DNA of 64,000 nt from Methylocapsa sp. S129. Lineage in GTDB: Bacteria > Pseudomonadota > Alphaproteobacteria > Rhizobiales > Beijerinckiaceae. Location: the NCBI RefSeq assembly GCF_009765995.1, contig NZ_LMUI01000024.1:1-64000 (forward strand), given 5' to 3'. Shown here piece by piece: positions 29,117-34,195 of this stretch. Numbering within the stretch: the first letter of the stretch is position 1; every line of letters begins with the position of its first letter. The notes beneath the pieces are model-generated. The model searched no databases, had not been told where the DNA came from, and saw only the letters and a list, made by a program, of their open reading frames with translations. The position numbers were made by a program, and so were the translations under genes.

Positions 29117-31771
29117 TCACGCCCCCTTGGGGAAGCTCACTACCGTCGTCGCCTTGCCGCCCCTCGACGCCTCAGCTTCGGCGCTGCCGCCGATCGCCTT
29201 GCCGTTGATCATCAGCGCGCCATGCGACGCGCCGATCTTGACCACGGACCCGTCGGCCAGTTCCCCCGCCAGCAGCAATTGCGCGAGCGGGTCCTGCACC
29301 GATTTCTGGATGACGCGTTTCAGCGGCCTGGCGCCGTAGCTCGGGTCATAGCCCTTGTCGGCGAGCCATTGCCGGCCCTTCGCGTCGAGCTCCAGAACGA
29401 TCTTGCGATCCTCCAGCAGTTTGGCCAGCCGCTGGAACTGGATGTCGACGATGGCCGCCATATCCTCGCGCGCCAGGCGGTGGAACAGGATGATCTCGTC
29501 GACGCGGTTGAGGAATTCGGGGCGGAAATGACCGCGCACGACATGCATCACCTCGCCCTCGACCGCCTTGGAATCCTCGCCCTCTTTTTGGGCGACGAGA
29601 TATTCCGAACCGAGATTGGAGGTCATCACGATCAGCACGTTGCGGAAGTCGACCGTGCGGCCCTGGCCATCAGTCAGGCGGCCGTCGTCGAGCACCTGCA
29701 GCAGCACGTTAAAGACGTCGGGATGCGCCTTTTCGATCTCGTCGAACAAAACGACCTGATAGGGGCGCCGGCGCACCGCCTCGGTGAGCGCGCCGCCCTC
29801 GTCATAGCCGACATAGCCGGGCGGCGCCCCGATCAGACGCGAGACCGAGTGCTTCTCCATATATTCGGACATGTCGATGCGCACCATCGCCGTGTCGTCG
29901 TCGAACAGGAACGACGCCAGCGCCTTGGTCAGCTCGGTCTTGCCGACGCCCGTCGGCCCCAGGAACATGAACGAGCCGATCGGGCGATGCGGGTCTTGCA
30001 GGCCCGCGCGCGCGCGGCGCACGGCGGTGGCGACCGCCGTCACCGCCTCGCTCTGGCCGACGACGCGCTTGGCCAGCTCCGCCTCCATCTTAAGAAGCTT
30101 CTCGCGCTCGCCCGACAGCATCTTGTCGACCGGCACGCCGGTCCACCGCGACACAACCTGCGCGATCATGTCGGGCGTCACCGCTTCGTCGACAAGGTTG
30201 TCGGCGCTCGCCTCTTCGCTCTGGGCGAGTTTCTTTTCGAGTTCGGGGATGACGCCATAGGTCAGTTCGCCCGCGCGCTGATAATTGCCTTTGCGATGCA
30301 CCTCGGCGAGTTCGTTGCGCGCCGCTTCGAGCTGCTCCTTGACCTTCTGCGCCGCGCCAAGCTTGTCCTTCTCCGCGCGCCAGCGCGCCGTCAGCGCGGC
30401 CGACTTCTCCTCGAGATCGGCCAGTTCTGTCGACAGCTTCTTCAGGCGATCCTTGGAAGCCGCGTCCGTCTCTTTCTTCAGCGCCTCCTGCTCGATCTTG
30501 AGCTGGATGATGCGCCGGTCGAATTCATCAAGCTCCTCGGGCTTGGAATCGACCTGCATGCGCAGGCGCGACGAGGCCTCGTCGACGAGATCGATCGCCT
30601 TGTCCGGCAGGAAACGGTCGGCGATATAGCGGTTCGACAAAGTCGCCGCCGCGACGATCGCCGCGTCGGTGATATGCACGCCATGGTGCAGCTCGTATTT
30701 GTCCTTGAGGCCGCGCAGGATCGAAATCGTATCCTCGACCGTCGGCTCGGAGACGAACACAGGCTGGAAGCGGCGCGCGAGCGCGGCGTCCTTTTCGACA
30801 TGTTTGCGATATTCGTCGAGCGTGGTCGCGCCGATGCAATGCAATTCGCCGCGCGCCAGAGCGGGTTTGAGCAGGTTCGAGGCGTCCATCGCCCCGTCCG
30901 CTTTGCCCGCGCCGACCAACGTATGCATTTCGTCGATGAACAGAATGATGCCGCCCTCGGCCGCGGTCACCTCGTTGAGCACGGCTTTCAACCGCTCCTC
31001 GAATTCGCCGCGATATTTCGCGCCGGCGATGAGCGAGCCCATATCGAGCGCGAGCAGCTTCTTGTCTTTCAGGGATTCCGGCACGTCGCCATTGACGATG
31101 CGCAGAGCGAGGCCTTCGACGATCGCGGTTTTGCCGACGCCGGGCTCGCCGATCAGCACCGGATTGTTCTTGGTGCGGCGCGACAAAACCTGGATGGTGC
31201 GGCGGATTTCCTCGTCGCGGCCGATCACCGGATCGAGCTTGCCGGCGCGGGCGGCGTCCGTCAGGTTGCGCGCATATTTCTTGAGCGCGTCATAGGCGTT
31301 CTCGGCGCTCGCCGAATCGGCCGAGCGGCCCTTGCGCAGATCTTCGATCGCGGCGTTCAAGGTCTGGGCGGAAACGCCGGCGGCGGCGAGAATCTTGGCG
31401 GCTTCCGCGCCTTTCTCCATCGCGATGGCGAGCAGCAGGCGTTCGACGGTGACGAAGGAATCGCCCGCCTTCTGCGCGATCTTCTCGGCATTGTCGAACA
31501 GGCGCGCCGTGGTCGGCGCGAGATAAAGCTGGCCGGCGCCCGAGCCCTGCACCTTGGGGAGTTTGGCCAAGGCAAGCTCGACCGCGGCGAGCGCGTCGCG
31601 CGAGCGGCCGCCCGCCTTGTCGATCAGCCCGGCCGACAGGCCCTGGTCGTCGTCGAGCAACACCTTGAGCAGGTGCTCGGGGGTGAATTGCTGATGGCCT
31701 TCGCGAAGCGCCAAAGATTGCGCGCTCTGGATGAATCCCCTTGCGCGCTCCGTGTATTTTTCCAAATTCAT
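29117..31771 (-). CDS. clpB: ATP-dependent disaggregase ClpB
   Basis: An 884-residue Hsp100 chaperone that dissolves protein aggregates with DnaK. It has the N-terminal Clp repeat domain ([20 protein letters not shown]), two AAA+ domains with Walker A motifs GEPGVGKT and GPTGVGKT, and a long coiled-coil M domain between them ([20 protein letters not shown]). No ClpP-binding loop is evident, as expected for ClpB. The ATG at 31771 has GAGGAG about 8 nt upstream. The C-terminal tail is somewhat longer than in E. coli. Related in function to GrpE encoded about 10 kb away. Confidence 0.98.
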
Positions 31772-31933
31772 TTCGTTCTCTCCTCGGCTCCGGCCGCGCC
31801 CCGAAGCGACGCCGACCGGCCCAAACGATGATGGATTTGCCGCATGAAGCGGCATGACTGTTATTTAGGCGCATTATCGGCGCGTGGAAGGGGGAAATGT
31901 GGGGAATTTGTATAACTGCCGGCGGGGGCGAAC

Positions 31934-32173: not shown

Positions 32174-33871
32174 ATGGCTACGACTTTGACGATGGCGGTT
32201 CCTTTCCCGGCGCATGGCCCGCGCTATGACGAGACTTTCCCAGTCCTCACCGGCAAGGAAATCGACCGCCTGCGCCGCTTTGGAACGTTGCGCTGCTATG
32301 CCGACGGCGAAAAGCTGTTCGAGACCGGCAAGCCGGGGCCCGGCATGTTCATCGTCCTGTCCGGCCATGTCGCCATCACGCAACGCGACGGCATCGGCCA
32401 CGTCACGCCGGTGGTCGAGCAGGGGCCCGGCCAGTTCCTCGCCGAGATCGGTCAGCTTTCGGACCGCGCGGCTCTGGTCGACGGCGTCGCGGAAGGCGAA
32501 GTCGAGACCCTGCTGATTCCCTCCGCCGGGGTCCGTTCGCTGCTGGTGGCCGAAGCCGACCTTGGCGAACGCATCATGCGCGCGCTGATCTTGCGCCGCG
32601 TCAGCTTGATCGGCACGGGCGCGGGGGGCCCGGTGCTGATTGGTTCGCCCGCCTCGGCCGATGTCGTCCGGCTGCAGGGGTTTCTCAGCCGCAACGGCTA
32701 TCCCCATCATCTGCTCGACCCGGCGAGCGAGCAGGAGGCGAGCGACCTGATCGCGCGCTACGCTTCCGAGGCGGGCGGCCTGCCGCTTGTCGTCTGTCCC
32801 GACGGCGCGATCCTGCATAATCCGACCGAGGCCGTTCTTGCGCGGCGGCTGGGAATGACCGACGCGCCGCGCCAGGATTTCACCTATGACGTAGCGGTGG
32901 TCGGCGCCGGGCCGGCGGGCCTGGCGACCGCCGTCTATGCGGCCTCGGAGGGCCTGTCGGTGGTCGTGCTCGACGCGCGCGCCTTTGGCGGCCAGGCGGG
33001 CGCCAGCGCGCGCATCGAGAATTATCTCGGCTTTCCCACCGGCATTTCCGGCCAGGCGCTCGCCGGCCGAGCCTATGTCCAGGCGGCGAAATTCGGCGCC
33101 GAAATGCTGATTCCCGCTGTCGTGAAGACGCTCGATTGTTCGCGCGCCAACGGCGCCCTTGGCCTCGAACTTGAGGACGGCGGCCGCGTCCATGCGCGCA
33201 CCGTGGTGGTCGCCAGCGGCGCCCGCTATCGCCGCCCGGCGATCGCCGACCTCGCGCGCTTCGAGGGGCGCGGAATCTGGTATTGGGCTTCGCCGATCGA
33301 GGCGCGGCTCTGCGCGGGCGAAGAGGTGATCCTGGTCGGCGGCGGCAATTCGGCGGGCCAGGGCGCCGTCTTTCTATCCGCCCATGCCGCCAAGGTGCGC
33401 ATGATGGTGCGCGCCGCGGGCCTCGCCGAAAGCATGTCGCGCTATCTGATCGACAGGATCGCCGCGACGCCCAATATCGAATTGATGATTCAGACCGAGA
33501 TCGTCGCCCTCGAAGGCGCGCCGGACGGCGGCCTCGAACAGGTCCGTTGGCGCGATCGCGGCGCCGGCGCCGAGGCGGAGGCGCCGATCCGCAACGTCTT
33601 CCTGTTCGTCGGCGCCGATCCCGCCACCGCCTGGCTTGATGGCTGCGGCGTCGTCGTCGACAAGGCGGGCTTCATCATGACCGGCCCGCATTGCGGCGGC
33701 GCTGGAAATCGTCCGGCGATGCCGCTCGAATCCTCCGTGCCCGGCGTATTCGCCGTCGGCGACGTCCGCTCCGGATCCGTCAAACGCGTCGGCGCCGCGA
33801 TCGGCGAAGGCGCGCAGGTCGTGCAGGCGCTGCACGGCTTTCTCGCCGATTCCAGAAGCCCCAGCCTCTGA
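32174..33871 (+). CDS. cyclic-nucleotide-domain/thioredoxin-reductase-like flavoprotein
   Basis: A 565-residue multidomain flavoprotein. Residues about 20-140 form a cyclic-nucleotide-binding fold (LFETGKPGPGMFIVLSGHVA). Residues about 150-230 resemble a thioredoxin/glutaredoxin-like module without CxxC (LPLVVCPDGAILHNPTEAVL). Residues 237-565 are thioredoxin-reductase-like, with FAD motif VVGAGPAGLATA (244-249 core) and NADPH motif GGGNSAGQGA (389-398). The usual CxxC of thioredoxin reductase is absent: WYWASPIEARLC (369-380) occupies that place. It precedes a UBP-type zinc-finger gene by 15 nt and is probably cotranscribed. Redox role likely; partner and ligand unknown. Confidence 0.88.
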   Translation: MATTLTMAVPFPAHGPRYDETFPVLTGKEIDRLRRFGTLRCYADGEKLFETGKPGPGMFIVLSGHVAITQRDGIGHVTPVVEQGPGQFLAEIGQLSDRAALVDGVAEGEVETLLIPSAGVRSLLVAEADLGERIMRALILRRVSLIGTGAGGPVLIGSPASADVVRLQGFLSRNGYPHHLLDPASEQEASDLIARYASEAGGLPLVVCPDGAILHNPTEAVLARRLGMTDAPRQDFTYDVAVVGAGPAGLATAVYAASEGLSVVVLDARAFGGQAGASARIENYLGFPTGISGQALAGRAYVQAAKFGAEMLIPAVVKTLDCSRANGALGLELEDGGRVHARTVVVASGARYRRPAIADLARFEGRGIWYWASPIEARLCAGEEVILVGGGNSAGQGAVFLSAHAAKVRMMVRAAGLAESMSRYLIDRIAATPNIELMIQTEIVALEGAPDGGLEQVRWRDRGAGAEAEAPIRNVFLFVGADPATAWLDGCGVVVDKAGFIMTGPHCGGAGNRPAMPLESSVPGVFAVGDVRSGSVKRVGAAIGEGAQVVQALHGFLADSRSPSL

Positions 33872-33886
33872 CCAAAGGGAGCCGCC

Positions 33887-34195
33887 ATGGCGAACCATTG
33901 CACCCATCTCAAGACCATTCGCACGGTGACGCCCAGCGCGCTCGGCTGCGAGGAATGCCTGAAGACCGGCGACGCCTGGCTCCATCTTCGCATCTGCCGC
34001 GCGTGCGGCCATGTCGGCTGCTGCGACCAGTCGCCCGGCCAGCACGCGACCAAGCATTTTCATGCGACCCAGCATCCCATCATCGAAGGCTATGATCCGC
34101 CCGAAGGCTGGGGCTGGTGCTACGTAGACGAGCTGATGTTCGACCTGTCGGACCGCATGACTCCGCATAACGGCCCGATCCCGCGCTATTACTGA
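33887..34195 (+). CDS. UBP-type zinc-finger protein
   Basis: A 102-residue protein that is almost entirely one UBP-type (ubiquitin-hydrolase) zinc finger. The spacing of Cys and His is clear: CTHL at the start, CEEC (residues 21-24), CRACGHVGCCD (37-46) and the His cluster HATKHFHATQHP. In eukaryotes this fold binds the free C-terminal Gly-Gly of ubiquitin; bacterial copies have no known ligand. It follows the cNMP/thioredoxin-reductase-like flavoprotein gene, a pairing I recall as recurrent in bacteria. A role as an adaptor or redox-linked zinc sensor is inference. Confidence 0.9.
   Translation: MANHCTHLKTIRTVTPSALGCEECLKTGDAWLHLRICRACGHVGCCDQSPGQHATKHFHATQHPIIEGYDPPEGWGWCYVDELMFDLSDRMTPHNGPIPRYY

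Follow-up and report, generated by a model that had tools for sequence, protein, structure and literature searches.

A recurrent bacterial gene pair encoding a thioredoxin-reductase-like flavoprotein that lacks the redox CxxC and a zf-UBP zinc finger, with a possible role in redox stress

The analysed window (64,000 nucleotides of contig NZ_LMUI01000024.1 of Methylocapsa sp. S129) encodes a thioredoxin reductase (TrxR)-like flavoprotein without the redox CxxC, followed on the same strand by a small protein that consists of a single ubiquitin-protease-type zinc finger (zf-UBP, hereafter the finger). The association of these two genes across bacteria is real, and chaperone and thioredoxin genes often adjoin them. 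We put at about even the chance that the pair is a stress redox module, in which a flavoprotein with a dedicated docking finger and a replaceable input domain has a thiol output beside chaperones. The features of the locus are as follows:

29117..31855, minus strand: clpB, the divergent neighbour (true start probably close to 31771), the only ClpB with a full score in this genome
32174..33871, plus strand: CxxC-less TrxR-like flavoprotein with an N-terminal cyclic-nucleotide-binding (CNB) fold, 565 aa (reading frame, Pfam, structure model)
32291..32545, plus strand: CNB domain, residues 40-124, lacking the arginine that canonically binds the phosphate (PF00027, alignment of 103 homologues)
32621..32851, plus strand: glutaredoxin-like domain without CxxC, approximately residues 150-226 (model and Foldseek)
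32882..33856, plus strand: FAD / NAD(P)H TrxR-like core, residues 237-561 (profile and structure matches)
33278..33313, plus strand: WYWASPIEARLC in place of the redox CxxC (homologue alignment)
33887..34195, plus strand: single-domain bacterial zf-UBP protein, 102 aa (PF02148, match to 2IDA)
34019..34027, plus strand: Cys45-Cys46-Asp47, present without exception in 111 bacterial zf-UBP proteins (alignment)

The two reading frames are separated by 15 nt between the flavoprotein stop and the finger start, and both have plausible putative ribosome-binding sites (GAGGGGCA-ATG and AAGGGAG-ATG, respectively). All sequence details in the earlier note on this DNA, which had described the same two frames, are correct, and the domains that it recognized (CNB fold, glutaredoxin-like module and TrxR-like unit both lacking CxxC, and single zf-UBP) are borne out by Pfam, Foldseek and alignment.

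In the flavoprotein, Pfam places cNMP_binding (PF00027) at residues 40-124 with 45.1 bits (cut-off 27.5) and Pyr_redox_2 at residues 238-546 with 96.9 bits. The full-length model has a mean pLDDT of 86 and a pTM of 0.86. A separate AlphaFold model of the middle module (residues 145-236, mean pLDDT 86) resembles Mrx1, NrdH and glutaredoxin folds (Foldseek probability 1.00 and TM 0.70 to 2lqo, with E-values of only ~3e-3), and a glutaredoxin-like fold is thus confirmed at the level of the predicted structure. Inspection of its sequence revealed no CxxC. The FAD- and nucleotide-binding motifs of TrxB are present, with the glycines of GxGxxG and GGGNSA and the GD...R..KR residues invariant. Only R413 is invariant in the HRRxxxR nucleotide motif, from which two of the three arginines are gone, so a preference for NADPH over NADH is not assured.

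The ordinary thioredoxin reductase, encoded elsewhere in the genome (391 bits, above the TIGR01292 cut-off), has SACATCDG at its redox site, where the flavoprotein has WYWASPIEARLC. None of 103 flavoprotein homologues has a CxxC at this position, and an incidental CxxC occurs elsewhere in four of them; the flavoprotein of the window has none. The site follows the pattern Y-[WA]-A-[ST]-x-x-E-A-x-x-C, in which Glu376 is kept in all 103 homologues and Cys380 in 102 of 103 of the main set, while one more distant Paraburkholderia flavoprotein has Ile at the Cys380 position. The model superposes well on the flavin-reducing (FR) TrxR structure 5mh4 (TMt 0.94) and on the TrxR-thioredoxin complex 1f6m (TMt 0.88), and poorly on 5mjk (0.63), the flavin-oxidising (FO) structure of the same enzyme as 5mh4. 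With no dithiol to feed, the flavoprotein probably need not rotate between the two states.

The flavoprotein is distinct from the characterized families that it resembles. It shares the FAD/NAD(P)H core of TrxB (192 bits to TIGR01292), but falls well below the cut-off of 343.45 bits, lacks CxxC and has additional CNB and glutaredoxin-like domains. AhpF, with a thioredoxin-fold N-terminal part and a TrxR core, is the best whole-chain structural match to the model; however, the score to TIGR03140 is 133.7 bits against a cut-off of 502.9, both CxxC centres of AhpF are missing, and a CNB domain stands where AhpF has a second thioredoxin fold. The TrxR-like ferredoxin/flavodoxin-NADP reductases (FNRs; e.g., B. 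cereus FNR2, 6gas) also have a TrxR fold without redox CxxC and use NAD(P)H for the reduction of FAD only. They match less strongly, and the partner indicated by gene context is a zinc finger rather than ferredoxin or flavodoxin. The Methylocapsa genome encodes a CxxC-less FNR of this type as well, with YAVRKMEHF at the comparable site.

The finger matches PF02148 at residues 21-82 (47.3 bits, cut-off 22.7). PDB entry 2IDA, a structure without assigned function that is titled 'Hypothetical protein', is a full-length orthologue (E 2.8e-60), which we take to be RPA1320 of Rhodopseudomonas palustris. Conserved in all 111 aligned fingers are C21, C24, C37, C40, C45/C46, H53, H57 and H63, and C45, C46, D47 and S49 form an invariant C-C-D-x-S signature; the set was partly picked by the pattern CGHVGCCD, and members found by the Pfam profile or tblastn likewise keep CCD. 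The zinc sites, as expected from eukaryotic fingers, are presumably C5/H7/C78/D81, C21/C24/C45 or C46/H53, and C37/C40/H57/H63. By this assignment, one cysteine of the invariant Cys45-Cys46 pair would be surplus to the zinc ligands, a point that bears on the earlier note's idea that the reactive thiols may reside in the finger. The fold and most zinc ligands are shared with the eukaryotic zf-UBP domains of USP5, HDAC6, USP33 and USP49 (E 2.5e-4 to USP49), and the aromatic residues W75/W77/Y79 are retained. In contrast to the eukaryotic domains, the CGRY loop is one residue longer and carries the CC pair (CCDxS), and the arginine that grips the ubiquitin carboxylate is lacking. None of the 111 fingers has an arginine at positions 47-49, where an acid is found instead, and neither possible loop alignment supplies the gripping residue. 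The proteobacterial long form ends in a strongly conserved tail, TPxxGPIPR[YF] (residues 92-102), which is missing from the short forms (88-90 aa) of actinobacteria and Burkholderia. Single zf-UBP genes are also present on three IMG/VR viral contigs (L110:855-1157, L111:5001-5279 and L112:5001-5285, at 73, 51 and 43% identity) and could be phage genes or host DNA.

The gene pair recurs widely, as the earlier note had supposed. Among 190 evenly drawn Alphaproteobacteria genomes (flavoprotein threshold E <= 1e-60), the finger was found in six and the flavoprotein in 12, the six being a subset of the 12 (Fisher p = 1.5e-8; 2.4e-7 when the genome of the window is excluded; both values overstate independence, as the sampled genomes are phylogenetically related). 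At 55 of 80 named finger loci the flavoprotein gene lies within ~3 kb (at 52 within 1 kb). The arrangement varies (upstream, downstream, convergent or divergent, in several gene orders), which argues against simple inherited synteny. The flavoprotein is encoded elsewhere in the genome for 22 of the 25 finger loci lacking a nearby copy, and the remaining three genomes are metagenome-assembled. In a second sample, of 200 genomes, the flavoprotein adjoins the finger in six of six cases. One contig, labelled Actinobacteria bacterium 21-64-8 (L087), gave a Mesorhizobium-type locus in its phylum sample and is likely mislabelled or contaminated. Conversely, 12 of 12 flavoprotein genomes checked for a finger have none. 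Because the flavoprotein occurs without any finger, it must also have a finger-independent activity. In a tree made by a quick method and with some long branches, flavoproteins that are paired with a finger are spread over several deep branches, and a clade with mostly unpaired members stands apart. A fusion of the two proteins, for which the earlier note had proposed a survey along with co-occurrence, was not found among the 80 named loci and the other loci examined.

The sole finger fusion encountered joins a KefB-type Na/H exchanger, TrkA_N and a C-terminal zf-UBP in a Phycisphaerae metagenome-assembled genome (L108:8336-10258), and suggests that a redox-gated antiporter can be under the control of the finger. 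In Rhodococcus, Nocardia and Streptomyces plasmids (Actinomycetota), the gene order is (dnaK)-grpE-dnaJ-cbpM-clpB-trxA-finger-flavoprotein, and the last two reading frames overlap or abut. The trxA product has a WCxPC site (WCAPC or WCGPC) and matches both the Thioredoxin and Trx2-ribbon profiles, identifying it as a Trx2-type thioredoxin; in Rhodomicrobium, 48 nt separate a Trx2 gene from the finger downstream of it. A Paraburkholderia cluster contains PsiE, flavoprotein, finger, Clp ATPase, Hsp20 and HdeD. Genes for a histidine kinase, a FixJ/LuxR-type regulator, Dps and an alpha/beta-hydrolase are repeatedly found close to the pair across several families; in Rhizobium, Caulobacter, Sphingomonas and relatives (L026, L080, L099 and others), the kinase and regulator are accompanied by a stand-alone receiver, and Dps is also found. 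The neighbourhoods share gene kinds with the tLST, namely PsiE, Clp, Hsp20 and HdeD in Paraburkholderia and the KefB and thioredoxin contexts; however, the term 'zinc finger' is absent from one tLST review, and the window has no such island. A link to anti-phage defence was rejected, as the PADLOC hit was weak and meaningless.

In the window itself, the divergent clpB may adjoin the pair by chance, since none of the other alphaproteobacterial loci examined has clpB next to it, and we retain this adjacency as a mere parallel to the actinobacterial operons. The 318 bp between clpB and the pair contain no match to a heat-shock (RpoH-like) promoter. Overall, the neighbourhoods point to proteostasis under thiol-oxidative stress, and the frequent adjacency of chaperone and thioredoxin genes indicates that the pair probably has a role in redox repair under stress. 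The redox setting that the earlier note had suggested is thus supported.

The N-terminal CNB fold raises the question of cyclic nucleotide control, and the earlier note had proposed nucleotide gating. In the canonical phosphate-binding cassette, an arginine (Arg209 of PKA) holds the cAMP phosphate (PMC2246266). The equivalent position 100 is S, A, I or L, and never arginine, in the 103 homologues, provided that the cassette contains no indel. Burkholderia and Paraburkholderia flavoproteins that are paired with a finger have no CNB domain at all and start at the glutaredoxin-like part, and the flavoprotein of Streptomyces fungicidicus carries a receiver domain in its stead. There (L182:1844-5327), the receiver-domain flavoprotein is followed by a gene for a CNB-histidine kinase and then by the finger; a universal stress protein gene is divergent from this run. 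Since CNB, receiver domain and no domain interchange, the constant core of the system consists of the glutaredoxin-like part, the CxxC-less TrxR core and the finger. A signalling scheme in which cAMP or cGMP on the CNB domain switches the flavoprotein and the finger relays the signal would fit the presence of the PF00027 fold, including a 70.5-bit CNB in the Rhodococcus flavoprotein, and the S. fungicidicus locus, where a CNB in trans on the neighbouring kinase links this domain to the finger-flavoprotein system. The cassette residues and the CNB-less flavoproteins count against it, and we consider it rather improbable. Canonical cAMP gating is unlikely from the sequence, so that the earlier proposal is weakened, but input via another ligand or by plain conformational change in the CNB domain is possible.

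Two other explanations concern what the finger does. It could read C-termini or ubiquitin-like tails and so bring proteins that are tagged or damaged to the flavoprotein, as suggested by the fold it shares with USP and HDAC6 fingers, the three retained aromatic residues and the chaperone and disaggregase neighbours. With an acid where the carboxylate-gripping arginine would be, and C-C-D-x-S in its place, the idea, put forward in the earlier note, that the finger docks a protein C-terminus is weakened as far as the eukaryotic mode is concerned, and we regard the tail-reading role as quite unlikely. Alternatively, the flavoprotein alone could be an NAD(P)H oxidase, a diaphorase or a ferredoxin/flavodoxin reductase, with the finger regulating only its expression or stability. 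CxxC-less TrxR-like FNRs do exist, including the one in this genome, and the flavoprotein often occurs without a finger. The reverse is almost never the case, however, and the glutaredoxin-like domain and thioredoxin neighbours suggest thiol chemistry, making this explanation distinctly doubtful too.

More specifically, the pair could be a split thioredoxin reductase, in which the finger supplies the lost cysteines in trans and electrons pass from NAD(P)H via FAD and the zinc-linked Cys45-Cys46 to Trx2 or to the thiols of chaperone-bound clients. We consider this unlikely. In the preferred, broader reading of a stress redox module, for which we infer the flavoprotein-finger complex, the electron path, its direction and the clients, NAD(P)H would reduce the FAD of the TrxR-like core, which has no dithiol of its own. 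The core would probably be held in the flavin-reducing geometry, leaving the old thioredoxin-docking face free, and the finger, as a dedicated partner, may dock at this face. Once docked, it could be the thiol acceptor (through Cys45-Cys46-Asp47) or an adaptor bringing a thiol client; in some lineages, this client may be the Trx2-type thioredoxin. The N-terminal domain, which is a CNB in this flavoprotein and a receiver domain or missing in others, would act as a replaceable input switch, most likely without canonical cAMP sensing. As output, oxidised protein thiols would be repaired or used in signalling alongside ClpB/DnaK-type chaperones.

Burroughs, Iyer and Aravind reportedly predicted in 2011, by computation, that bacterial ZF-UBP domains function in redox signalling that depends on cyclic nucleotides. 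The pairing thus appears to have been predicted already, and the statement in the earlier note that no function had been described is inaccurate in that form. That system reportedly likewise has a zf-UBP gene beside a CNB-TrxR-like gene and a proposed redox role, but dependence on cyclic nucleotides looks unlikely by sequence for the present family. Full-text literature searches aimed at the pair found no functional or experimental paper on it. What is added here is the stress context (chaperone/Trx2 operons and the KefB fusion), the receiver-domain swap and the CCD signature, which may overlap with the 2011 paper.

If the pair acts as proposed, it would constitute a widespread redox branch that operates in parallel with the ordinary thioredoxin system and lacks the cysteines that define the latter, and that is tied to chaperones and to K+/H+ antiporters responsive to thiol oxidation. 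It would also show a bacterial role for the zf-UBP fold, in proteins where the arginine that grips the ubiquitin tail is missing. If the split-reductase reading is true, the finger would be a redox subunit dedicated to proteostasis, and thus a non-ubiquitin function for this fold. The two-protein system is small and tractable, and the dnaK/clpB/Trx2 operon renders the question directly testable.
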